The translations under genes were made by a program, and so were the position numbers. The notes beneath the pieces are model-generated. The model made no database searches, had not been told where the DNA came from, and was given only the letters and a program-made list of their open reading frames with translations. A stretch of 64,000 bases of DNA, from positions 1-64,000 of the forward strand of contig NZ_KE386822.1 of assembly GCF_000428945.1 (NCBI RefSeq), written 5' to 3'. Positions 195-60,606 of this stretch are shown here, piece by piece; the first letter of the stretch is position 1, and every line of letters begins with the position of its first letter. The stretch is from Hamadaea tsunoensis DSM 44101. GTDB taxonomy: Bacteria; Actinomycetota; Actinomycetes; Mycobacteriales; Micromonosporaceae.

Positions 195-1226
195 TCAGGC
201 GGCGATCTCGCGGACGACGCCGGCCATCACCTCGTGCAGCGGCAGCCGGAGGCGTACGCTCGCCCGCGCGCCGAGTTCCTCGCCGAGATCGGGGGCGTCC
301 CGGAAGCACGGCGTGATCGCCCGCCAGACGCGTACGCGGGTCTCCGGTTCGCGCAGGTCCAGCGTTGCCGGGTCGAGCCGGTCGAGGATGTGCTCGAGCC
401 GGGCCACCGGCAGTGGCCTGAGCCGGCCGAGCATGATCCGGCTGGCCGCGGCCGGTCCGTGGCCCGCGAGGAGGCTCGCCGGATCGGCCTGGTCGGGCAG
501 CGCCGCGGCCTCCACGATCCCCGGCCACGTACGCAGCAGCGGCACCCACCGCTCGAACGCCTGCCGGCCGGCCGCGTCGCCGTCGAGCACGACGGACAGC
601 GGCGGATGCTCGGGCAGCCACTCGCCGAGCAGGGCCAGGTGCTCGGGCGTCAGCATGGTCCCGCACAGCGCCACCGGGATCACGAGTTCGGGGCGGCCCT
701 CGTGGAGCATCCGGTGGACGGCGATCGCGTCCGTCGGGCCCTCGACGACGACCACGCGCACGGCCCGGATGTCGTCCGGGTCGCGCAGGGCGAGCTGGCG
801 GCCGAGCCCGAACAGCGCGGCGCTCTTCTGGTAGACCGCGGTGGTCGGTGTGTTGAGGTACTTCGGCGCGGCCGGTCGCCCGGACAGGTCGCGCCCGGTG
901 AACCCGACGACGTCGCAGGCCATGTCGTGGATCGGGAACACCACCCGGTGCCGGAAGTAGTCCACGGCCCGCCCGTTGTACGCGCGGTGGGCCAGACCGG
1001 CCGCGATCAGCTCGGCGACGGTGAAGCCGCGGCGGGTCAGGTTGTCGATGAGGGCGGTCCAGTGCTTCGGCGCGTAGCCGGGCTGCCACCAGGAGCCGAT
1101 CGCGCCCTCGATGCCCTGCCGGCGCAGGTAGCGGACGGCCGCCGGCGCATGGGGGAGCCGCGCGGCGTAGTAGGCCGCGGCGGCTGCGTTGGCCGCCCGC
1201 AGGCGGTCCGGGGCGACGGGCTCCAT
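195..1226 (-). CDS. DnaG-like primase core (Toprim) protein without zinc finger
   Basis: 343-residue protein resembling the catalytic core of bacterial DnaG primase, which makes RNA primers for DNA replication. The N-terminal core signature is visible as FTGRDLSG (about 109-116) followed by PKYLNTP and the QKSAALFGL stretch. The Toprim signatures follow: VVEGPTDA with acidic E162, and LDGDAAG with D215 and D217. The CHC2 zinc-binding domain that normally starts DnaG, and the C-terminal helicase-binding domain, are both absent; DnaG is usually about 600 residues. It is therefore more likely an accessory or mobile-element-type primase than the housekeeping enzyme. The ATG at 1226 fits the conserved start, with only a weak GAGCTC ribosome site. 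What lies beyond the left edge is unknown. Confidence 0.75.
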   Translation of the reverse strand: MEPVAPDRLRAANAAAAAYYAARLPHAPAAVRYLRRQGIEGAIGSWWQPGYAPKHWTALIDNLTRRGFTVAELIAAGLAHRAYNGRAVDYFRHRVVFPIHDMACDVVGFTGRDLSGRPAAPKYLNTPTTAVYQKSAALFGLGRQLALRDPDDIRAVRVVVVEGPTDAIAVHRMLHEGRPELVIPVALCGTMLTPEHLALLGEWLPEHPPLSVVLDGDAAGRQAFERWVPLLRTWPGIVEAAALPDQADPASLLAGHGPAAASRIMLGRLRPLPVARLEHILDRLDPATLDLREPETRVRVWRAITPCFRDAPDLGEELGARASVRLRLPLHEVMAGVVREIAA

Positions 1227-1335
1227 CGGAGCTCATTTTAGTACAGGTGTTCTGAAGTTATCCAGGCTTCCATCACATTTCGTTGATGGATGGTGACGGG
1301 GGGTGTCGCAGTGCCCCCCGTCGGCGCGTCTGAGG

Positions 1336-1617
1336 TCAGGGCAGCGGGCGGCGGAGCGAGTACGTCACGGCGAACAGCCGGTGCGGTTCGTTCGCGTGGA
1401 AGACCGCGTTGCGGTGGTACGCCTCCCACCCGTCGGCGCCCGCCCGGTTGAGGTGGATCAGGTCGTCGTACCGCTCGTCGGTGCCCCAGCGCTGGACTCC
1501 GGAGCCGGTGTAGAAGATGGCGTCCCAGTCCATGAAGCGGTCCGTGCCGAGGGTGCCGGCGGAGCGGTATTCGAGGCGTGCGTACTCCCATCGGGTCATG
1601 AACGCATTGTGCCGCAT
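1336..1617 (-). CDS. Small DUF4177-like protein
   Basis: 93-residue soluble protein of unknown function. The pattern W-E-Y near the start (MTRWEYARLEY) and a later LNRAGADGWEAY stretch resembles the small DUF4177 family, where a conserved Gly-Trp-Glu follows a Leu-Asn helix. An internal ATG at 1599 (residue 7, MTRWEYARL) could be the true start and would put the WEY motif at the usual distance from the N-terminus. No signal peptide or membrane segment is visible. It stands alone between the primase-like gene and a VOC gene on the same strand. The family assignment is by motif resemblance only. Confidence 0.55.
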   Translation of the reverse strand: MRHNAFMTRWEYARLEYRSAGTLGTDRFMDWDAIFYTGSGVQRWGTDERYDDLIHLNRAGADGWEAYHRNAVFHANEPHRLFAVTYSLRRPLP

Positions 1618-1677
1618 AGGTAGCCGAGCGCCACCGCTGTACGCCGCGCGGGTCCGGTTTCCGTCTACAGAGGCCGG

Positions 1678-2061
1678 TCAAACCGGGCGGTGGCAGACCG
1701 CCTCGACGTTGTTGCCGTCCGGGTCGCGCACATAGGCCGCGTAGTAGTGGGCGTGGTATTCGGGGCGCGGCCGGGGTTCGTGCAGCACGGGCGCGCCCAG
1801 CCCGACGGCGGCCGCGAAGAACGCGTCGACGGCCGCCCGCGACGGGGCGTGGAAGGCGATGTGCGCCTCCTTGGCCACCCCCTCGGCGGTCGCCAGGCCG
1901 ATCCAGAAGTCGGGCCGGGGACCGTCCTGCCCGACCGTGCCGTAACCGATCGTGTCGTCGTAGTCGAACAGCCGCTTGCCGCCCAGCGGGGCGAGCACCG
2001 CGTCGTAGAACGCGATGCTCGCGGCCAGGTCGTCGCACGGGATCGCGACATGATCAATCAC
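1678..2061 (-). CDS. VOC (glyoxalase/bleomycin-resistance fold) protein
   Basis: 127-residue single VOC-domain protein. It opens with the typical IDHVAIPCDDLAASIAFY and closes with YVRDPDGNNVEAVCH, both hallmark stretches of the fold. Candidate metal ligands are the N-terminal His of DHVAI, the central His of EAHIAFHA and the terminal Glu of NNVEAV. Such proteins are metal-dependent lyases, dioxygenases or drug-binding proteins, and the substrate cannot be told from sequence. The GTG at 2061 was chosen because it gives the standard VIDHVAI start; upstream sequence in the same frame is not protein-like. It follows the MFS gene in the same direction, separated by a short CCGGATCAG repeat. Confidence 0.85.
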   Translation of the reverse strand: MIDHVAIPCDDLAASIAFYDAVLAPLGGKRLFDYDDTIGYGTVGQDGPRPDFWIGLATAEGVAKEAHIAFHAPSRAAVDAFFAAAVGLGAPVLHEPRPRPEYHAHYYAAYVRDPDGNNVEAVCHRPV

Positions 2062-2107
2062 GGCGATGATTGTCCGTGAGGGGTACGACAATCCTTCCGC
2101 CCCAGGC

Positions 2108-2163
2108 TGTCGGGGCCGGATCAGTGGTCGTAGCCGGATCAGCTGTCGGTGCCGGATCAGACG
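2108..2163. repeat. Short tandem repeat with CCGGATCAG core
   Basis: Three imperfect copies of an 18-19-bp unit beginning GCCGGATCAG lie between the VOC gene and the MFS gene. The last copy contains the MFS stop codon (complement of TCA at 2157-2159). A similar core appears in the 15-bp array at 10332-10415, and a related GATCTGCCGG word in the array at 25864-25930. Confidence 0.7.
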
Positions 2164-3383
2164 GTGACGGGCTCGGCCGCCGCCGCGCGCGGCCGGGTCC
2201 GCACGCCCCAGGCCACCACCGCCGGGTACGCGAGCGCGGCGCCGGCGAAGACCAGCCCGGTCGCGATCCAGCCGAAGCCGCCGAGCCCGAGCACGAGCGC
2301 GGTGACGAGCGGCGGGGCGACCATGTTGCCGAGCTGCCGCCCGGTGAGCCAGGTGCCCTGATACTGGCCCTGCGCCCAGTCCGGCGCGAGCTCGAAGACG
2401 ACCGCCCAGGTGGCCGAGGAGAGCAGCAGCTCGCCGAGCACGTGGACGACGGCGGCGGCCAGCACCGCCACGATCACCCCGGCCACCGGCAGGACGCCGA
2501 TCAGTCCCAGCAGGACGCACGAGGCGGCCACGACCAGGGCGCCCCGGCGGCTGGCCCGGGCCGCGGCGGCCGGACCCTCGATCCCGCGGGAGGCGCGTAC
2601 CTGGAGCAGGACGCAGCCGGCGGTGTTGACGACGAGGGACGCCGACACCAGCCACAGCGGCGCACCGCCCCGGGCGACCAGCCACAGCGGCAGTCCGACC
2701 ACGAACATGGCGTTGTACAGCGCCGACAGCAGCCCGTCGATCGCCGCGAACACGAGGAACGGCCGGTCCCGCAGGGCCACCAGCCTCGGCCCCGTCGCGG
2801 GCGCGGCCACCGGCGCGACCCGGCCGGCCCGGGCCACGATCGCGGCCGCGATCACGAAGGAGACCGCGTCGGCCAGCAGCAGCACCACGTATCCGGCCCG
2901 CGTGTCGAGCGCCAGGGGCACGGCGGCGGCGAGCGTACCGAGGCCGATGCCAAGGTTGTTGGCCGACCGGGTGTACGCGCGCAGGCGTACCCGTTCACCG
3001 GGAGCGGCGGCCGCGGCCACCATGGCACCGCTCGCACTGCGCGCGGCCGCGTCGGCGGCGCCGACCAGACAGGTGAGGACGGCGTACGACCAGAATCCGT
3101 CGATCAGGGTGAGGCCCGCGAAGCCGGCCGCGGAGACGAGGAGCGCGCCGATGTACATGCCCTTGGGGCCGGCGCGGTCGGCGAGATAGCCGAGCGGGGT
3201 GGAAAGGACGATGCTGACCGCGGCGGCGGCGCTCAGCCCGAGGGCGACCTGGGCGGGGGTGAGCCCGATGACGCGGGTGAGGAACAGGACGCTGGTCGCC
3301 AGGTACGCGCCGTTCCCGACCGTGTTGACCAGGGTCGCGGTGACGAGGACGCGGGCGGTACCGGGCGGTGGCAGCAGGGGCAT
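2157..3383 (-). CDS. MFS transporter
   Basis: 408-residue integral membrane protein with about twelve hydrophobic segments, as expected for a major facilitator superfamily exporter. The conserved loop after helix 2 appears as GYLADRAGPKG, the family's G-x-x-x-D-R-x-G-R-like signature. The likely role is drug or metabolite efflux; the substrate is unknown. The ATG at 3383 (MPLLPPPG) is preferred. An in-frame TTG at 3398 would add five residues but overlaps the palindrome at 3401-3410. No good ribosome site precedes either start. It is followed by the VOC gene on the same strand. Confidence 0.85.
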   Translation of the reverse strand: MPLLPPPGTARVLVTATLVNTVGNGAYLATSVLFLTRVIGLTPAQVALGLSAAAAVSIVLSTPLGYLADRAGPKGMYIGALLVSAAGFAGLTLIDGFWSYAVLTCLVGAADAAARSASGAMVAAAAAPGERVRLRAYTRSANNLGIGLGTLAAAVPLALDTRAGYVVLLLADAVSFVIAAAIVARAGRVAPVAAPATGPRLVALRDRPFLVFAAIDGLLSALYNAMFVVGLPLWLVARGGAPLWLVSASLVVNTAGCVLLQVRASRGIEGPAAAARASRRGALVVAASCVLLGLIGVLPVAGVIVAVLAAAVVHVLGELLLSSATWAVVFELAPDWAQGQYQGTWLTGRQLGNMVAPPLVTALVLGLGGFGWIATGLVFAGAALAYPAVVAWGVRTRPRAAAAEPVTV

Positions 3384-3413: not shown

Positions 3414-3446
3414 TGCAATCCCACCCCCTCGCCCCGCCCCCTACCT

Positions 3447-3520
3447 CGACGATCTTGCGCGAATGTCCGGGCTTTTCCGACATCGCGGACGGAATGCGAG
3501 ACACTCGCGCAAGATCGTCG
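3447..3520. repeat. 3'-end palindromic repeat, family A, copy 1
   Basis: 74-bp element whose ends form a perfect 16-bp inverted repeat (CGACGATCTTGCGCGA at 3447-3462; complement at 3505-3520), extendable to 20 bp with one mismatch. It lies 17 bp beyond the stop of the minus-strand hydrolase gene. Further copies are at 18995-19070, 29328-29407 and 60531-60606. The position suggests a terminator-like or mRNA 3'-end stem-loop. Confidence 0.9.
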
Positions 3521-3537
3521 CAGCGGGGGCGCGGGGG

Positions 3538-4350
3538 TCAGTGGGCTGAGAGGAGGGCGGCCAGGGCGGGCGCGAACTCCGCCGGGCTCGTCGCGTATCC
3601 GATGTGGTCGCCGGGGAGGTCGGTCACCCGCGACCCGAGCCAGTCCGCGATCACCAGGTTGGGCCGGTACGGCACGAACTCGCGGCCCGCGGCGCCGCCC
3701 ACGAGCAGGATCCGGTCCGAGATCCGGCCGAGCGCGTCGAAGTCGGGCGCGTACCGGGTGTACTGCCGCAGTTCCGTCTCCAGGAACAGGTCCAGGTTCC
3801 GGTTCATCCGCTCGATCAGCTCCACGACGTGCGGCGGCAGCTCGCCCGCGGCGGGGCGCATGGGCGGCGGCGCCCCGATGCGCGCGTTGAACTTCGCCAT
3901 CGCCGCGATCGCGCCGTTGGCCTGGTACTCGGCGTGGACCTCGTCGAGGAAGGCGAGCCACTCGTCGCCGTCGGGCAGGAGGTGGAGCAGGGGCGGCTCG
4001 TGGCAGACGAAGGCGCGTACCAGGTCGGGGCGCCGGGTCGCCAGGTCGAGGCCGACGATCGCGCCTGAACTGGACCCGAACACGTACGCGGGCCCGTCGC
4101 CGAGCTGCTCGATCAGCATGGCCGCGTCGGCCGAGTCCTGCGCGAGGCGGTCCCCGGATCCGGAACCGGGGGCGCTGCGCGAGAACCCCCGGCGGTCGTA
4201 CGCGACGGTCGTGAACCTGTCGGCGAGAAGCTGGGCGGTCGGGGCGAAGGGGCCGGCGTCGCCGTTGCCGCCGGCGATGAAGAGCAGCAGGGGACCGCTG
4301 CCCCGGGACTCGTAGTAGATGCCGTTGAGCTCCATGCTGTTGGCCTGCAT
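3538..4350 (-). CDS. Alpha/beta hydrolase
   Basis: 270-residue alpha/beta-hydrolase-fold protein. The oxyanion region is LFIAGGNGD (about 23-31), the nucleophile elbow is GSSSG with Ser94, and the catalytic His is H249 in LPGDHIG. The cap region is short and there is no signal peptide, so it is a cytoplasmic esterase, haloperoxidase-like or lactonase-type enzyme of unknown substrate. The ATG at 4350 sits 6 nt after a TACGGT -10 hexamer and 18+6 nt after a TTGACA -35, implying a leaderless transcript. ATG 4335 (MELNGIYYES) is an alternative. Two identical-type operators overlap the promoter, so the gene is probably repressor-controlled. Family A copy 1 follows its stop. Confidence 0.85.
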   Translation of the reverse strand: MQANSMELNGIYYESRGSGPLLLFIAGGNGDAGPFAPTAQLLADRFTTVAYDRRGFSRSAPGSGSGDRLAQDSADAAMLIEQLGDGPAYVFGSSSGAIVGLDLATRRPDLVRAFVCHEPPLLHLLPDGDEWLAFLDEVHAEYQANGAIAAMAKFNARIGAPPPMRPAAGELPPHVVELIERMNRNLDLFLETELRQYTRYAPDFDALGRISDRILLVGGAAGREFVPYRPNLVIADWLGSRVTDLPGDHIGYATSPAEFAPALAALLSAH

Positions 4351-11516: not shown

Positions 11517-11590
11517 GATCTTGACGGATGCCCGGAAGGCGACGTCATCCGGGCCGGGACGATGTTTCTTTCCGGACATCCGTCAAGATC
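11517..11590. terminator. 21-bp inverted repeat after ABC exporter operon
   Basis: Arms 11517-11537 and 11570-11590 pair over 21 bp with one mismatch around a 32-bp centre. The structure abuts the stop codon (11591) of the last gene of the minus-strand ABC operon. Like the family A palindromes it begins with GATCTTG and ends CAAGATC, and it probably ends transcription or protects the 3' end. Confidence 0.75.
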
Positions 11591-18221: not shown

Positions 18222-18989
18222 GTGATACGTGCGGTGGTCACCGATCTCGACGGAACGATCGTCCGGACCGACGGAACGATCAGCCCCCGGATGGCGGCCG
18301 CCGCGCGTACCCTCGCGGAACGCGGGATCCCGCTCATCGCCGCGACGGCCCGCACCCACTACGGCGTCGCCGCCGCGGGTCTCGACTTCACCCTCTCCGT
18401 CTGCTCCGCCGGCGCCATCGGCTGGGACCACGACACCCGCGTGTGGCGCGAGACCTTTCCCCACCCGGCCGTACGCGAGGTCGCCGAGGCGATCCTGCGG
18501 CTACCGGGCGCCGGTGTCGGAGCGCACGACGGCGACCAGTGGTTCATGACGGCGGCGTACGCGACCCTCAACGGCTGGCGCAGCCGCGGCCCGAGGACCG
18601 TCGTCGAGCCGGGGGAACTGCCGCCGTCGGCCTGTGTCATGGCCGCGTGCGCCCCGGATCTCAGCCCGTTCGCGCTGATCGAGGAGCTGGGCGTCGACCC
18701 CGCGATCGCCACCCTCAGCACCGCCGGGCGCAACGTCGTCGACATCACCCCGTCCGGTGTGGACAAGGGGACCGGGGTGCTGCGCGCGCTCGCGTACCTG
18801 GGGATCGCCCCGGAGGAGACGGTGGCCTTCGGCGACATGGTCGCCGACATCCCGATGTTCGGCGTGGTCGGTCTGGGCGTCTCCGTCGGCACGGCCCACC
18901 CGGACGTGGTCGCGGCCGCCCAGCACGTGGCCCCCGACGCCGACTCCGACGGCGTCCCCGAAACCCTCACCCTCCTGGGCCTCCTCTAA
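18222..18989 (+). CDS. HAD-superfamily (Cof-type) phosphatase
   Basis: 255-residue haloacid dehalogenase-fold hydrolase. Motif I is TDLDGTIV (Asp8 nucleophile, Asp10 acid), motif II lies in ATARTH, motif III is the Lys of GVDKGTG, and motif IV is FGDMVADIPMF. The large C2 cap places it with the Cof/YbjI sugar-phosphate phosphatases. GTG 18222 lies 6 nt after TACCCT (18210-18215), so a leaderless mRNA is likely. A family A palindrome starts 5 bp after the TAA stop. Confidence 0.9.
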   Translation: MIRAVVTDLDGTIVRTDGTISPRMAAAARTLAERGIPLIAATARTHYGVAAAGLDFTLSVCSAGAIGWDHDTRVWRETFPHPAVREVAEAILRLPGAGVGAHDGDQWFMTAAYATLNGWRSRGPRTVVEPGELPPSACVMAACAPDLSPFALIEELGVDPAIATLSTAGRNVVDITPSGVDKGTGVLRALAYLGIAPEETVAFGDMVADIPMFGVVGLGVSVGTAHPDVVAAAQHVAPDADSDGVPETLTLLGLL

Positions 18990-18994
18990 CAGTT

Positions 18995-19070
18995 CCGACG
19001 ATCTTGCGCGAATATCCGGGCTTTTCGGACATAGGTCGCGAAATTCGGGACACTCGCGCAAGATCGTCGG
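18995..19070. repeat. 3'-end palindromic repeat, family A, copy 2
   Basis: 76-bp copy with perfect 17-bp terminal arms, CCGACGATCTTGCGCGA at 18995-19011 and its complement at 19054-19070. It begins 5 bp after the HAD phosphatase stop codon. Confidence 0.9.
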
Positions 19071-28179: not shown

Positions 28180-29214
28180 ATGAAACAGCTGGGGTGGGAT
28201 GACCGCTTCGCGGACGCGTACGCCCGCTATGACCGGATCGACACGCGACCCGGCCGGGTGATGCGTGTGGACAGGGGCGTGTGCACGGTGCTGACCGAAT
28301 CCGGCAGCGACCGTGCGAGCCTGGGTGGTGGCGTACTGGCGCAGGGAGCGTCCGACCCGGTACATCTTCCCTGCGTGGGCGACTGGGTCGTGGTACGCGA
28401 CTGGCCCGATCGGCGTACGACGCTGGAGGCCGTGCTGCCGCGCCGGACGGCCATCGTGCGGCGTACCGCCGACAAGGATTCGACCGGCCAGGTGCTGGCC
28501 GCGAACCTGGACGTGGCCGCAGTCGTGGAGCCGCTGGACAGCGGGCCGGATTTCGGGCGTATCGAGCGCCTGCTCGCGCTGGCCTGGGACTCGGGCGCGC
28601 GGCCGCTCGTGGTGCTGACGAAGGCCGACGTGACCGCGCACGCGGAAGCCGTCGCCGACCAGGTACGCGAGGTCGCCCCGAACGTCGAGGTGCTGACGGT
28701 CAGCGCGGACACCGGCCAGGGCCTGGACACGCTGCGCCCGTACGTGGCGCCGGGTCGCACCCTGGCGCTCATGGGCCGCTCCGGTGCGGGCAAGTCGTCG
28801 CTGGTCAACGCGTTGGCCGGGGCGACGGTCATGATGACCCAGTCCGTACGCCGGGTCGACGGCAAGGGCCGCCACACGACGACCTACCGCGCGCTCGTGC
28901 CGATGCCGAACGGCGGTGCCGTCATCGACACCCCGGGCCTGCGCGGTGTCGGTCTGCTGGACGGCAGCGTCGGCCTGCAGGAGGCCTTCGCCGACGTGGA
29001 CGAGCTGGCCATGGACTGCCGGTTCGCGGACTGTACACACTCGACGGAGCCGGGCTGCGCGGTGCAGGCGGCGCTCGACGACGGCGAGCTGACCGCCCGG
29101 CGCTGGGCGAGCTGGCTGCGGCTGCGCAAGGAGCTCGAGCACGAGTCCAAGCGGCGGGCGGTCCGCCTCCGCGAAGAGGAGCGGGCGGTCCGCAACCGCT
29201 ACAAAGGGCGTTAG
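28180..29214 (+). CDS. rsgA: Ribosome small-subunit-dependent GTPase A
   Basis: 344-residue circularly permuted GTPase that helps mature the 30S subunit. An OB-like N-terminal domain precedes the permuted G motifs: G4 TKAD, then G1 GRSGAGKSS, and G3 DTPGLR. A C-terminal zinc knuckle reads CRFADCTHSTEPGC. ATG 28180 (MKQLGWDD) is preceded by GAGGAAG. An in-frame ATG at 28135 is possible but its extra residues look non-coding. It ends in the Arg/Glu-rich helix usual for RsgA. A family A palindrome lies 113 bp after its stop. Confidence 0.92.
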   Translation: MKQLGWDDRFADAYARYDRIDTRPGRVMRVDRGVCTVLTESGSDRASLGGGVLAQGASDPVHLPCVGDWVVVRDWPDRRTTLEAVLPRRTAIVRRTADKDSTGQVLAANLDVAAVVEPLDSGPDFGRIERLLALAWDSGARPLVVLTKADVTAHAEAVADQVREVAPNVEVLTVSADTGQGLDTLRPYVAPGRTLALMGRSGAGKSSLVNALAGATVMMTQSVRRVDGKGRHTTTYRALVPMPNGGAVIDTPGLRGVGLLDGSVGLQEAFADVDELAMDCRFADCTHSTEPGCAVQAALDDGELTARRWASWLRLRKELEHESKRRAVRLREEERAVRNRYKGR

Positions 29215-29225
29215 ATCTTTTAGGG

Positions 29226-29312
29226 CAAAGCATCATCCGCCGCGGCTCGGTCACGGTTTCCCCCCAACCCCCGCCGGGCACTGCTTGGCCCGGCCTTTGT
29301 CGCGACTGTCCG
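29226..29312 (+). repeat. Family B repeat, partial copy 3
   Basis: It retains the GCATC-TCCGCCGCGG-TCGGTC block and the CTTTGTCGCGACTGTCCGA block of family B, with a divergent centre. A further fragment of the second block lies at 29457-29485. Confidence 0.65.
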
Positions 29313-29327
29313 ACTCGTTCCCGTAGG

Positions 29328-29407
29328 GGTCGACGATCTTGCGCGAATGTCCGGGCACTTCGGGTGTATCGGACGAAATTCGAGGCATTCGCGCAAGATC
29401 GTCGACC
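29328..29407. repeat. 3'-end palindromic repeat, family A, copy 3
   Basis: 80-bp copy with the longest arms of the family: 22 bp, perfect, at 29328-29349 and 29386-29407. It lies 113 bp after the rsgA stop codon. Confidence 0.9.
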
Positions 29408-29456
29408 ACCCTTGAAGATCGGGGCACCGTCCGACCCTGGCGGGTTCCGGCGGGTT

Positions 29457-29485
29457 CTGGCTTTGTCGCGACTGTCCGATATAGG
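29457..29485 (+). repeat. Family B repeat, fragment
   Basis: Only the CTTTGTCGCGACTGTCCGATATA end of family B is present, matching the inverted end of copy 2 at 29833-29858. Confidence 0.6.
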
Positions 29486-29508
29486 TGCCGGGCGCGGGTC
29501 GGGTGAGG

Positions 29509-29654
29509 TGATCGTTTACGGCTGCGGTGTCGAAACAGCCACCCGATGCATGATCGTTTACGGTTCTGGAGCGCGTTTGACGGGTTCTGCTACACCTGAC
29601 GCGTCATCGATCATGCAGATCGGGCCGGATTTACACCCCTGCCGTAAACGATCA
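29509..29654. repeat. 146-bp foldback (MITE-like) element
   Basis: Terminal arms 29509-29530 and 29633-29654 pair over 22 bp with two mismatches, the outer 14 bp (TGATCGTTTACGGC) being perfect. A direct copy of TGATCGTTTACGG occurs inside at 29551-29563. A second inner pair (CCCGATGCATGATCG near 29542, CGATCATGCAGATCGGG near 29608) nests within. It has no coding capacity and no clear target-site duplication. Confidence 0.7.
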
Positions 29655-29832
29655 AGAAATTAGCGCGCCGTGTCCGCCTGACGGAAGATCGTTCCCGCAT
29701 CACGGGCAAACGGTTGGTAGCCGAACGGCGTGGACGTGATCCACAGCGGCTGAGATGTCAAAACGTGCCCCATCTCCAAGATTCATAGCGGTCGGGATGT
29801 AGGAAAACGGCCTCTACCAATGTCCAAAGCCG

Positions 29833-30013
29833 CTATATCGGACAGTCGGGACAAAGTCTGGGCGGGGTTCGGGGTCAACGGTGACCGGACCGCGGTGGAC
29901 GATGCGTCGCCCCACTCAGGTGGCAGTGGAGTCCCCGGAGCGCAGCGACAGGGGCGGAACGGTCTCCCGCGCGAGGAGCGGAAGTGAGGTCGACGAACCC
30001 GGGACAATATCTT
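29833..30013 (-). repeat. Interspersed repeat, family B, copy 2
   Basis: About 180 bp that reads on the minus strand like 11319-11476, with shared blocks in the same order and intervening short indels. It is the most complete pair of the family in this window. Confidence 0.8.
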
Positions 30014-30177
30014 GAAAAGATCTTGACCATGTCCGTCGACACGCGGCCGGGGTTCGGACACACGTCCGAAGCCTGGGCGCTAGAGTCGTCGGCGGACCCC
30101 CGGCCTTCGCGTACGGAGCGTGACGGTGACGTTGGCTACGCTGGTGGGGGATCACGGGCATAACGCGTGATGCGTTC

Positions 30178-30200
30178 TTGTCATACGTGGGGTCTACAGT
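30178..30200 (+). promoter_or_regulatory. RecA-NDp (PafBC-type) promoter of uvrA
   Basis: TTGTCA (30178-30183), 11 nt, then TACAGT (30195-30200). This spacing and the words match the mycobacterial DNA-damage promoter written tTGTCRgtg-N8-TAnnnT, which is activated by PafBC rather than repressed by LexA. No LexA palindrome was seen. Transcription would start near 30207, giving a leader of about 94 nt. Confidence 0.65.
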
Positions 30201-30206
30201 CTCGGC

Positions 30207-30224
30207 AGGGCACTTCTGTGCCCT
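30207..30224 (+). promoter_or_regulatory. 5' hairpin in uvrA leader
   Basis: A perfect 7-bp stem AGGGCAC / GTGCCCT with a TTCT loop begins at the predicted transcription start, so the uvrA mRNA would carry a 5'-terminal hairpin that could slow decay. Confidence 0.5.
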
Positions 30225-30300
30225 AAAAGTCCGATTTTGACGTCCGATGGGGATGTCCGATGTTCCTGGGCCTGTTCAGCTGTACCTGTGGGGAGCGACC

Positions 30301-33246
30301 GTGAGTGACCGTCTGATCATCCGTGGCGCGCGTGAGCACAACCTGCGCGAGGTGAGCCTCGACCTGCCCCGGGACGCCATGATCGTCTTCACCGGTCTCT
30401 CCGGTTCCGGGAAGAGCAGCCTCGCCTTCGACACGATCTTCGCCGAGGGTCAGCGGCGCTACGTCGAGTCGCTGTCGAGCTACGCCCGGCAGTTCCTCGG
30501 CCAGATGGACAAGCCGGACGTGGACTTCATCGAGGGCCTGTCGCCGGCGGTCTCCATCGACCAGAAGTCGACCTCGCGCAACCCCCGCTCGACGGTGGGC
30601 ACGATCACCGAGGTCTACGACTACCTGCGCCTGCTGTTCGCCCGGGTCGGCGAGCCGCACTGCCCGGTCTGCGGCGAGGCGATCACCAAGCAGTCGCCGC
30701 AGCAGATCGTGGACCGGGTGCTGGCGATGGCGGACGGCACCCGGTTCCAGGTGCTGGCCCCCGTCATCCGGGGCCGCAAGGGCGAGTACCTCGACCTGTT
30801 CAGCGAGCTGCAGGCCAAGGGTTACGCGCGCGCCCGCGTCGACGGCGTCGTGCACTCGCTGACCGACGTGCCGAAGCTGAAGAAGCAGGAGAAGCACACG
30901 ATCGAGGTGGTCGTCGACCGGCTGGCCGTCAAGGCGTCGGCCAAGCAGCGCCTGACCGACTCGGTCGAGACCGCGCTGGGGCTGGCCAACGGCATCGTGG
31001 TGCTGGACTTCGTCGACCTGCCGGAGGACGACGAGCACCGCGAGCGCAAGTTCTCCGAGCATCTGGCCTGCCCGAACGAGCACCCGCTGGCGATCGAGGA
31101 CCTGGAGCCGCGGGTCTTCTCGTTCAACGCGCCGTACGGCGCCTGCCCGGAGTGCACGGGCCTGGGCCAGAAGAAGGAGGTCGACCCCGAGCTGCTCGTC
31201 CCCGACGTGGAGAAGAGCCTGCGCGAGGGCGCGATCGCGCCGTGGAACAACGGGCACACCTTCGACTACTTCATCCAGGTCCTCGGCGCGCTCGGCGAGG
31301 AGTCCGGCTTCGACCTCGACAGCCCCTGGCGGGCGCTGACGGCCAAGGCGCAGAAGCTGATCCTGCACGGCGTCGAGAACCAGGTGCACGTGCGCTACCG
31401 GAACAAGTACGGCCGGGAGCGGTCGTACTTCGCCGGGTACGAGGGCGTGGTGCCGTGGCTGGAGCGCCGGCACTCCGACACCGAGAGCGAGTGGAGCCGG
31501 GAGAAGTACGAGGGCTACATGCGGGAGGTGCCCTGCTCGGTCTGCGGCGGCACCCGGCTCAAGCCCGAGGTCCTCGCCGTGACCGTCGCCCGGCACAACA
31601 TCGCCGAGGTGTGCGGCCTGTCCGTCGGCGAGGCCGCCGAACTGCTGGAGAAGCTGGAACTCACCGACCGGCAGCTGATGATCGCCGAGCGCGTCCTCAA
31701 GGAGATCAACGCCCGGCTCAAGTTCCTGCTGGACGTCGGCCTCGACTACCTGTCGCTCGACCGGCCCGCCGGGTCGCTGTCGGGCGGCGAGGCGCAGCGC
31801 ATCCGGCTGGCCACCCAGATTGGCTCCGGCCTCGTGGGCGTCCTCTACGTCCTCGACGAGCCGTCGATCGGCCTGCACCAGCGCGACAACCACCGTCTCA
31901 TCGAGACCCTCGTACGCCTGCGCGGCCTGGGCAACACCCTCATCGTCGTCGAGCACGACGAGGACACGATCCGCACGGCCGACTGGGTGGTCGACATCGG
32001 CCCGGGCGCGGGGGAGCACGGCGGGAAGATCGTGCACTCCGGCACCTACGAGGACCTGCTGGCCAACGAGGAGTCGGTCACCGGGGCGTACCTGGCGGGG
32101 CGCAGGAACATCCCGGTGCCGGGGCACCGCCGGCCGCAGACCAAGGGCCGCGAGCTGACCGTGGTCGGCGCGCGCGAGCACAACCTGAAGAACGTGTCGG
32201 TCAGCTTCCCGCTCGGCCAGCTGATCTCGGTCACCGGCGTCTCCGGCTCGGGCAAGTCGACGCTGGTCAACGACATCCTCTACACCGTGCTGGCGAACCA
32301 GATCAACGGCGCGCGGATGGTGCCCGGCCGGCATACCCGCATCACCGGCCTCGACCACGTGGACAAGGTCGTGGGCGTGGACCAGAGCCCGATCGGGCGT
32401 ACGCCGCGGTCGAACCCGGCCACCTACACGGGCGTGTTCGACAACATCCGCAAGCTCTTCGCGGAGACGACCGAGGCGAAGGTACGCGGCTACGGTCCCG
32501 GCCGGTTCTCGTTCAACGTCAAGGGCGGCCGGTGCGAGAACTGCTCGGGCGACGGCACGATCAAGATCGAGATGAACTTCCTGCCGGACGTGTACGTGCC
32601 GTGCGAGGTCTGCAAGGGGGCCCGGTACAACCGGGAGACCCTGGAGGTGCACTACAAGAGCCGGACCATCGCCGAGGTGCTGGAGATGCCGATCGAGGAG
32701 GCCGCCGGCTTCTTCGAGGCGATCCCGGCCATCCACCGGCACCTGAAGACCCTGGTCGACGTGGGTCTGGGCTACGTACGCCTCGGCCAGCCGGCCCCGA
32801 CACTGTCCGGCGGCGAGGCGCAGCGGGTGAAGCTGGCGTCGGAGTTGCAGAAGCGCTCGACCGGCCGGACGGTCTACGTGCTGGACGAGCCCACGACCGG
32901 CCTGCACTTCGAGGACATCCGCAAGCTGCTGCTCCTGCTGCAGGGCCTGGTGGACAAGGGCAACACGGTGATCGTGATCGAGCACAACCTCGACGTGATC
33001 AAGAGCTCGGACTGGATCATCGACATGGGTCCGGAGGGCGGCCACCGCGGTGGCACCGTCATCGCCGAAGGTACGCCGGAACAGGTCGCCGCGGTCGACG
33101 AGTCGCACACGGGCGCGTACCTGCGGCCGATCCTCGAAGCCGTGCCGACGCAACCGCACGCCAAGCGCACCGCCGCCGGTACGCCGAAGAAGGCCGCTCC
33201 GGCGCAGGCGAAGGCACCCGCGAAGCGGACCCGGGCCAAGGTTTGA
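30301..33246 (+). CDS. uvrA: UvrABC excinuclease subunit A
   Basis: 981-residue damage-sensing ATPase of nucleotide excision repair. It has two ABC modules: Walker [10 protein letters not shown] (32-40) and GVSGSGKST (about 646-654), with signature LSGGEAQR in each. Zinc-binding Cys pairs appear as CPVC, CPEC, CSVC and, in the second module, CENC with CEVC. UvrA2 loads UvrB at lesions. GTG 30301 ([15 protein letters not shown]) is chosen because GGGGAG lies 6 nt upstream and it matches the family start. The promoter upstream looks DNA-damage-inducible. It is followed by a convergent glycosyltransferase-like gene. Confidence 0.97.
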
Positions 33247-58933: not shown

Positions 58934-59781
58934 CGATCACCGACACCTGGCGGCCCAGCGCCGTCGAACAGGAGCGGATCGCGTACCGGCGACGGCGCGC
59001 GATCCGCTCGGTTCTGCTCGCGGCGGCCTCGACGGCGGTGCTCGGCACGCTGCTGGCCGTCGGCGTCACGAACTCGCCGGGCTGGCCGCGGGTCAAGGAG
59101 TCCTTCTTCGACCTCGCGGTCGCCCAGGACTCCCTGCCGGCCATCCTGGACGGCCTCGTGCTCAACATCGAGCTGCTGATCTGCTGCGCGCTGGGCGCGA
59201 TGGCGCTGGGCCTGCTCATCGCCGTGCTGCGTACGCTGCGCGGGCCGGTCGCCTTCCCGGTCCGGGCGCTGGCCACCGGCTACACGTACGGGTTCCGGGG
59301 CGTACCGCTGATCATCGTGCTGTACGTGATGACGCTCGGCGTACCGGGGCTGCGGCTGTCGGGCATGCCGTCGACCCTCGTCCTCGGCGGCCTGGCGCTC
59401 GTGATCGTCTACGGCGCGTACCTGGCCGAGGTGTTCCGGGCCGGCATCGAATCGGTGCACCCGAGCCAGCTCGCCGCCGCCCGCTCGCTCGGCCTGACCT
59501 ACCGCCAGACCATGCGCCACGTCGTGCTGCCGCAGGCCGTCCGGCGGGTCGCGCCGCCGCTGCTCAACGACACCGTCGCCCTGCAGAAGGACGTCGGCCT
59601 GGTCTCGCTGGCCGGACCCATCGACGCCGTACGCGCGGCGCAGATCCAGGTCGCCGAGCACTTCAACTTCACCCCGTACATCGTCGCCGGGGTGCTGTTC
59701 GTCCTGCTGGCCCTGCCGCTGATCGGCGTCACCGACTGGGTGACCCTGCGGGCGGCCCGACGTCAGGGGGCCCGTTCATGA
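58930..59781 (+). CDS. Amino-acid ABC transporter permease
   Basis: 283-residue membrane protein of the HisM/GlnP class. The EAA loop, [24 protein letters not shown], contacts the ATPase. A cytoplasmic N-terminal tail of about 30 residues precedes the first helix. It overlaps both neighbours by 4 bp (GTGA and ATGA), so the operon is translationally coupled. As a single permease gene it presumably forms a homodimer. Confidence 0.94.
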   Translation: MTITDTWRPSAVEQERIAYRRRRAIRSVLLAAASTAVLGTLLAVGVTNSPGWPRVKESFFDLAVAQDSLPAILDGLVLNIELLICCALGAMALGLLIAVLRTLRGPVAFPVRALATGYTYGFRGVPLIIVLYVMTLGVPGLRLSGMPSTLVLGGLALVIVYGAYLAEVFRAGIESVHPSQLAAARSLGLTYRQTMRHVVLPQAVRRVAPPLLNDTVALQKDVGLVSLAGPIDAVRAAQIQVAEHFNFTPYIVAGVLFVLLALPLIGVTDWVTLRAARRQGARS

Positions 59782-60524
59782 GTCCCGTCCTCCAGTGCCG
59801 GGGGCTGCGCAAGACGTTCCACGGTTCGGTCGTCCTCGACAGCCTCGACCTCGACGTCGCCGAGCACGAGGTCGTCGCGCTCATCGGCGCCTCGGGTTCG
59901 GGCAAGTCGACCCTGCTGCGCTGCGTGAACCTGCTCGAACGGCTGGACGACGGCACGATCCACCTCGGCGGGGAGCACATCACCGACCCCCGGGCCGACG
60001 CCGACCGCGTACGCCGGCAGATCGGGATCGTGTTCCAGGCGTACAACCTGTTCCCGCACATGACCGTGCTGCAGAACATCCTGCTGGCGCCGGTACGCGT
60101 ACACCGGCGGGCGAGGGCCGAGGCGGAGCAGGCGGCGCGGACGTGGCTGGACCGGGTCGGCCTGGGCAACCGCGCGGGTGACTATCCCGACCGGCTCAGC
60201 GGCGGCCAGCAGCAGCGGGTGGCGATCGTGCGGGCGCTGGTCAACAACCCGCGGCTGCTGCTGCTCGACGAGGTCACCAGCGCGCTCGACCCGGAGCTGG
60301 TCGGCGAGGTGCTGTCGATGGTGCGGGAGCTGAAGGGCGACGGGATGACCATGGTCCTCGCCACCCACGAGATGGGCTTCGCCAAGCAGGTCGCCGACCG
60401 CGTCGTCTTCCTCGACGGGGGAAGAGTCCTCGAACAAGGCCCGCCCGAACAGGTCCTCGGCGACCCGGTGGAGGCGCGGACCAGGCAGTTCCTCAGCCGC
60501 ATCATCGAAGCAGGTCGTCTGTGA
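59778..60524 (+). CDS. Amino-acid ABC transporter ATP-binding protein
   Basis: 248-residue GlnQ-type ATPase. Walker A GASGSGKST, Q-loop FQAYNLFPHMTV, signature LSGGQQQR, Walker B LLLLDEVTSALD and switch His in ATHEMGF are all intact. The Walker-B-adjacent residues VTSALD are typical of polar amino-acid importers. It is the last gene of the operon, and a family A palindrome starts 7 bp after its TGA. Confidence 0.96.
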   Translation: MSPVLQCRGLRKTFHGSVVLDSLDLDVAEHEVVALIGASGSGKSTLLRCVNLLERLDDGTIHLGGEHITDPRADADRVRRQIGIVFQAYNLFPHMTVLQNILLAPVRVHRRARAEAEQAARTWLDRVGLGNRAGDYPDRLSGGQQQRVAIVRALVNNPRLLLLDEVTSALDPELVGEVLSMVRELKGDGMTMVLATHEMGFAKQVADRVVFLDGGRVLEQGPPEQVLGDPVEARTRQFLSRIIEAGRL

Positions 60525-60530
60525 CCGACC

Positions 60531-60606
60531 CCGACGATCTTGCGCGAACGTACCGGCACTTCGGGCATTCCGCGCAGATTTTGAGGCATTCGCGCAAGAT
60601 CGTCGG
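60531..60606. repeat. 3'-end palindromic repeat, family A, copy 4
   Basis: 76-bp copy with perfect 18-bp arms (60531-60548 and 60589-60606). It follows the amino-acid ABC operon by 6 bp and precedes the suf operon promoter. Confidence 0.9.

Follow-up and report, generated by a model that had tools for sequence, protein, structure and literature searches.

What kind of element is repeated, as a long palindrome with identical ends, just behind genes of Hamadaea tsunoensis DSM 44101? The question was raised by a first-pass annotation of the window (the whole stretch of 64,000 nucleotides analyzed here), which described four palindromes of about 75 bp and read them as a lineage-specific terminator or 3'-end RNA module spread as a repeat. 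Exact 16-mers of the arms were located at all four sites (3447/3505, 18996/19054, 29331/29389 and 60532/60590), confirming that the palindromes are real. There are indeed four copies, but the conserved unit, hereafter F1, measures exactly 74 bp in each, and the 76-bp and 80-bp versions given previously add locally complementary flanking bases. All four share identical 16-bp arms around a 42-bp center; F1 thus consists of two copies of CGACGATCTTGCGCGA facing each other with 42 bp between them.

3447..3520, + strand, 74 bp: F1 copy 1, 17 bp after the stop codon of an alpha/beta hydrolase gene (3538-4350, - strand)
18996..19069, + strand, 74 bp: F1 copy 2, 6 bp after the stop codon of a HAD phosphatase gene (18234-18989, + strand)
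29331..29404, + strand, 74 bp: F1 copy 3, 116 bp after rsgA (28180-29214), within a composite palindromic island
60532..60605, + strand, 74 bp: F1 copy 4, 7 bp after the stop codon of an ABC ATPase gene (59778-60524, + strand)

The 17, 6, 116 and 7 bp obtained with our own gene calls agree with the earlier distances (5-17 bp, and 113 bp for the copy behind rsgA), which referred to slightly longer elements, and the identities of the four genes agree as well (alpha/beta hydrolase, HAD phosphatase, RsgA, ABC ATPase). With up to 3 mismatches, the arm 16-mer matched the window at 13 places, 8 of which are the arms of the four copies, compared with a mean of 2.5 and a maximum of 6 matches in the shuffled window. 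Strong hairpins are predicted throughout. Copy 1, whose hairpin is lengthened by C-rich and G-rich flanks, reached -75.8 kcal/mol (z -7.8) when 3430-3540 was folded in the sense of the gene, and the predicted folds of copies 2, 3 and 4 reached -50.7 (z -7.2), -56 (z -7.1) and -42.8 kcal/mol (z -4.5). A known RNA family was rejected as an explanation since Rfam returned no match above gathering score in the window; both weak matches at 29200-30310 fell below gathering score, and one (E 0.42) overlapped copy 3.

Geometry and intactness of the F1 family

Allowing at most 3 mismatches in the 32 arm bases, we found 185 places with F1 geometry in the H. tsunoensis genome (9.48 Mb, 68 contigs) and none with a reversed control pattern. 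Listings were made of the 153 places with exact 9-bp arms, and the surrounding stretches were read. Altogether 161 of the 185 places were read, those of the window included, and 3 of these were dropped because of identical sequence and 20-bp flank, leaving 158 copies. Copies with an F3-like word (see below) within 400 bp were termed island copies (64 of 158) and the other 94 solo copies.

Decayed F1 copies are nearly absent. The arms of the 161 copies carried 0 mismatches in 81 cases, 1 in 53, 2 in 23 and 3 in 4; no copy with 4-7 arm mismatches occurred in the stretches read, and one stretch with 8 proved to be a half copy. Exact 12-bp arms in the loci read were part of a canonical pair in 310 of 316 cases, and two of the 6 outside a pair run off contig ends. 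Arm spacing in the same loci was 42 bp in 153 of 154 pairs. Columns 4-12 were invariant in the 158 copies, and pairwise divergence per site among the 94 solo copies was 0.31 in the center versus 0.05 in the arms, with a mean of 0.22 changes per copy over the 28 inner arm positions.

The claim that the variable centers remain foldable proved weak. The centers, at -8.46 kcal/mol, folded only slightly better than column-permuted ones, which averaged -7.67 and reached at best -7.95 kcal/mol in 20 permutations, and no covariation across the stem accompanied this. Compensatory pairing across the center was not found in the H. tsunoensis genome, where the strongest couplings joined nearby columns, and among 44 distinct elements from Catellatospora no coupling across the spacer stem stood out; the candidate of a structured RNA recognizable by covariation was therefore rejected. 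The only covarying pair was that of the outer columns 3-72 (A-T 104, G-T 27, G-C 14 and A-C 6 of 156). What the arms hold constant is sequence, not pairing. Linkage among variable center columns of the 94 solo copies vanished beyond approximately 12 nt, and the nearest-neighbor distance between centers was smaller than for permuted columns (4.23 versus 5.69 of 34), so some copying history remains.

F1 is unevenly distributed among contigs. Of the 153 listed copies, 77 fall on contigs C1, C4, C5, C8, C9 and C11 (2.63 Mb together) and 8 on contigs C2, C3, C6, C7, C10 and C13 (2.51 Mb); several contig ends of the assembly lie near F1 copies. The 13 F1-free loci of 20 kb were taken at arbitrary positions, but on contigs poor in F1 by the listings, and are no test of evenness.

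Placement behind genes and within palindromic islands

Placement was determined with codon-usage gene calls made in this analysis rather than curated ones. The 158 copies lay in convergent (74), tandem (61) and divergent (11) gaps, at a locus edge (10) or overlapping a call (2), and for 124 of 156 the nearest gene end was a 3' end. Tabulating the distances to stop codons, as the first-pass annotation had suggested, revealed a marked enrichment at 3' ends over uniform intergenic placement. Among solo copies, 76 of the 92 measured were nearest a 3' end (expected 45%), with a median distance of 25 bp, 45 lay within 30 bp of it (expected 12%) and 45 of 94 occupied convergent gaps (expected 23%); assuming independence, the binomial tails are 1e-13, 3e-18 and 6e-8, respectively. 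Island copies were located farther from stops than solo ones, at a median of 97 bp, and for 48 of 64 the nearest gene end was a 3' end. Within 60 bp, F1 displayed no clear preference for either orientation with respect to the gene (44 same, 34 opposite).

The flanks are of biased composition. Between stop codon and F1, 81 gene ends averaged 58% C and 17% G, compared with 34-41% C in the stretch behind 434 gene ends without F1, and the sequence after F1 is rich in G and A. Complementarity of the two flanks is mostly compositional (-21.9 versus -20.9 kcal/mol for shuffled partners, with -21.7 the lowest of 20 shuffles). Paired flanks such as TCTCCCCTCC/GGAGGGGAGG had suggested that F1 entered a terminator hairpin already present, at its loop; this was rejected because most of the complementarity stems from composition and continues right to the edge of F1.

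A canonical intrinsic terminator is not supported. No T-tract followed F1 within 40 nt in the gene's sense in any of 76 solo copies, nor did a scan around copy 2 detect one; of 352 H. tsunoensis gene ends without F1, 61 have a T-tract within 80 nt of the stop. Together with arms that keep their sequence over their pairing and a center of fixed length, this speaks against the term terminator as first used; what stands of that description is a repeated, lineage-specific element placed at 3' ends. Nor is F1 a general terminator, since just 67 of 218 convergent gaps hold a copy, even in loci mostly chosen for containing F1.

Other palindromic features of the window accompany F1 or resemble it:

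29215..30300, no strand assigned: rsgA-uvrA gap, a composite non-coding palindromic island with F3 words, F1 and nested F4 palindromes
29295..29313, + strand: F3 word, at most 2 mismatches to CTTTGTCGCGACTGTCCGA, adjoining F1 copy 3
29461, + strand: further F3 word
29838, - strand: further F3 word
11459, + strand: further F3 word
11517..11590, + strand: F2, a 74-bp palindrome whose arms (GATCTTGACGGATG) differ from those of F1

The F3 word CTTTGTCGCGACTGTCCGA occurs at 83 + 82 exact places in the H. tsunoensis genome; a search of the 353 remaining family genomes found it nowhere. Words of the 29215-30300 island, such as GATCGTTTACGG, GATCCACAGCGG and F3, have many diverged relatives in other loci of the genome. 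Fifteen pairs of F1 neighbors lie less than 1.5 kb apart, 12 of them in a minus-then-plus arrangement, and where inspected these 12 bracket non-coding islands of nested palindromes. F2 is represented by six copies of 72-74 bp in the H. tsunoensis loci read. A further palindrome at 49-139 of the window contains GGATCAGGG and GGCCCAAGATTC words, with similar words in palindromes of the same-genus genome G001. GATC was present in 21 of 76 palindrome arms of at least 14 bp in G001 loci L199-L218 and in 250 of 422 in H. tsunoensis loci, F1 included.

Distribution and inheritance in Micromonosporaceae

The exact F1 pattern was found in 8 of 354 genomes of the family Micromonosporaceae, namely H. tsunoensis and 7 of 11 Catellatospora genomes (genus g9 of our set, identified through named records with identical F1 elements). 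It was missing from the other 342 family genomes, in a search by exact 13-bp arms that could miss carriers with altered arms. Copies with exact 13-bp arms are indeed a minority in Catellatospora (19 of 113 in G086). With 3 mismatches allowed, each of the 7 carriers harbored 37-113 copies; none were found in the other 4 Catellatospora genomes or in three other genomes of H. tsunoensis' own genus. Among 394 genomes sampled from the class, H. tsunoensis alone had the exact pattern. Viral, plasmid or phage origin was rejected, as viral contigs lacked the exact pattern and a blastn search with the consensus against plasmids and phages gave no match. In the papers searched the arm 16-mer was not found, and nothing on F1 stood among the papers listed for actinobacterial or Micromonosporaceae palindromic repeats.

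Genome G001 is syntenic with the window (the protein of the UvrA gene is 92% identical) and has no F1 genome-wide, nor at the 6 orthologous places inspected. One convergent gap measures 28 bp in G001 versus 601 bp in H. tsunoensis, the stops in another G001 gap lie roughly 5 bp apart as read by eye, and the rsgA-uvrA gap is 225 bp. No target duplication was obvious by eye at the junctions compared. One of the orthologous places holds a different, GATC-containing palindrome with 25-bp arms.

Catellatospora copies have the same arms and usually a 43-bp center, with one center of 42 bp found. Of 21 copies at named Catellatospora loci, 19 had a 3' gene end no more than 100 bp away, and 10 were flanked by 3' ends on both sides. 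We compared 10 orthologous loci across species in 12 comparisons. Element length was unchanged in 12/12; the center differed at 50 of 516 sites (9.7%) and the flanks at 274 of 2245 (12.2%), with gaps in the flanks only. Arms differed at 0 of 288 sites, having been the search criterion. One locus kept (L058/L229) has alignment brackets on both sides with large indels alongside, and two comparisons (L053 versus L236 and L237) were excluded on the ground that in L053 the element follows a different gene, approximately 1.2 kb away from the aligned block. All 14 comparisons, both L053 pairs included, give 60 of 602 center and 402 of 2602 flank differences. Since length was kept at orthologous loci while center and flanks changed, these Catellatospora copies are old residents. 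Judged by sequence comparison, F1 evidently multiplied in the H. tsunoensis lineage and in Catellatospora, and in the latter it has long been inherited in place.

Several further observations were made in these genomes. The elements at L053 1059-1125 and at L236/L237 3002-3068 differ at 3 and 7 of 43 center positions and lie near the same genes; L053 has an additional gene (1136-2260, minus strand) in between, and its element possibly moved or came with that gene. In many listed G086 copies GTGA on one arm faces GCGA on its partner, so that a wobble pair recurs on one side. A different palindrome family around AAGAAGGGCACCTTCTT is present in Catellatospora loci (L051 1084-1131 and others), with five copies, all of 48 bp.

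Possible roles and likeness to known repeats

The constancy of ends and length around a drifting middle hints at a lasting role at gene ends. The reading that we favor, and to which we give about an even chance, sees in F1 a REPIN-like repeat that is old and has no linked RAYT. It would be the central part of a long hairpin at the 3' ends of transcripts from both directions, and sequence-specific recognition would keep the ends of the repeat constant. Preceded by C-rich and followed by G-rich sequence, and located mostly behind stops and often in convergent gaps, F1 constitutes the core of a long predicted hairpin. Such a strand-symmetric hairpin at transcript 3' ends would block 3' exonucleases and may help to end or trim transcripts arriving from both sides, and a sequence-specific factor acting on the DNA or on the hairpin would keep ends and length constant. 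Several results weigh against a transcript-end function: the T-tract is missing (76/76), the center shows no compensatory changes, flank pairing is mostly compositional, 64 of 158 copies reside in islands farther from stops, and orthologous centers and flanks have diverged to a similar degree.

Fixed length with a drifting center is not explained by a plain terminator, and a two-site DNA element therefore stays the main rival. Here a protein would bind both inverted ends at a fixed distance and relieve or insulate supercoiling where convergent transcription meets; gyrase or IHF is said to bind the BIMEs of E. coli. Arms fixed in sequence with just one covarying outer pair, the near-uniform 42-bp spacing despite the drifting center, length kept where the flanks have indels, the lack of a clear strand preference and the convergent enrichment all fit this proposal, which we hold to be possible at well below an even chance. 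Yet solo copies hug stop codons, in tandem pairs as well, as expected of a transcript-end element, and the C-rich and G-rich flanks lengthen the hairpin. A further and more novel proposal, which we rate equally, is that F1 is a host-domesticated, transposase-free Micromonosporaceae repeat whose two sites at 42/43-bp spacing are selected at gene ends, above all convergent ones. Both ends would be recognized by one dedicated factor, insulating neighboring transcription units on either strand; sister species might rely on other GATC-containing palindromes for this purpose, as perhaps at the one G001 site.

A selfish mobile repeat without host role, biased to gene ends by purging elsewhere and constant at its ends because its enzyme needs them, would account for the patchy occurrence in H. 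tsunoensis and 7/11 Catellatospora with absence from three same-genus genomes, for the compact G001 junctions and for the related islands around the H. tsunoensis genome. In C. paridis, moreover, one near-identical element (3 of 43 center differences) lies beside a different gene (L053 versus L236). It is nevertheless unlikely in our view, given orthologous copies that keep their length while the center drifts, almost no decayed or half copies and, in a search covering the Y1 family, no transposase in the H. tsunoensis genome and a loose association in Catellatospora. Ordinary intrinsic terminators grown alike by convergence could draw on the strong predicted hairpins behind stop codons and on the U-tract-less hairpin ends described for Streptomyces clavuligerus in excerpts of PMC8269248. 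However, common 16-bp arms and a fixed length in 185 places are unexpected from convergence, and with no T-tract behind any solo copy examined we consider this very improbable. Most improbable of all are inverted pairs of a DNA-uptake word doubling as terminators. F1 does consist of inverted pairs behind genes, and the part of PMC2267715 consulted mentions uptake words that build terminator hairpins, but the 12-bp arm word is almost confined to the pair (6/316 outside it in the loci read) and single words show no surplus.

REPINs are described as copied by RAYTs, and F1 looks old, intact and stable in position without a linked RAYT; it could thus serve as a natural test of whether such repeats persist for host function. 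High-GC actinobacteria have many transcript ends without a classical U-tract, and F1 may represent one way to end or protect transcripts at convergent genes in these organisms.

Compared with known systems, F1 resembles MITEs in being short and repeated, with inverted ends and no evident coding capacity (general knowledge and excerpts of PMC3733652), and differs in that no parent transposon was found in the Y1-family search. In S. clavuligerus, according to excerpts of PMC8269248, stable GC hairpins without U-tract form one class of transcript ends, and the U-rich class is enriched in C before and G after the hairpin; unlike F1, and as far as those excerpts go, these ends do not make up a family of repeats with constant sequence and length.

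The closest likeness is to REPINs, REP doublets that form hairpins (PMC3116915, in excerpt). With them F1 shares two highly conserved 16-bp inverted ends (310/316 arms paired), a less conserved spacer of set length (153/154 at 42 bp; center divergence 0.31), a length called critical for REPINs, an extragenic location and the capacity to form a hairpin. As far as the excerpts of PMC3116915 allow the comparison, F1 differs by the lack of a RAYT in the H. tsunoensis genome, by the absence of compensatory spacer changes in both H. tsunoensis and Catellatospora and by having hardly any decayed single ends. The RAYT domain (Y1 transposase, PF01797) had no match in the H. tsunoensis genome and matched 5 of 7 F1-carrying versus 1 of 4 F1-free Catellatospora genomes, with some matches broken; RAYT or IS200-type mobilization was rejected on account of this absence and loose association. 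The architecture of F1 is that of a REPIN without a REP tag hairpin or a linked RAYT transposase.

GTAG/CGTC REPs offer a second parallel, drawn here from excerpts of PMC3733652. In these REPs a unit of 20-40 bp folds into a stem by itself, of 8-9 bp in CGTC families, and carries a tag that stays unpaired; by eye, the consensus half element of F1 has no GTAG and no 8-9-bp stem, and its CGTC is paired within the palindrome. The outer ends of F1 also read GACG/CGTC, like CGTC-tagged REPs, and CGTC families are, in the same excerpts, said to be without a dedicated transposase; F1 resembles them in that the H. tsunoensis genome has no Y1 transposase match. Some GTAG/CGTC REP dimers lie inside larger palindromes. 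Finally, these REPs occupy mostly convergent and same-direction gaps, often at most 20 bp from 3' ends, and F1 is placed alike, at 3' ends and in convergent gaps.
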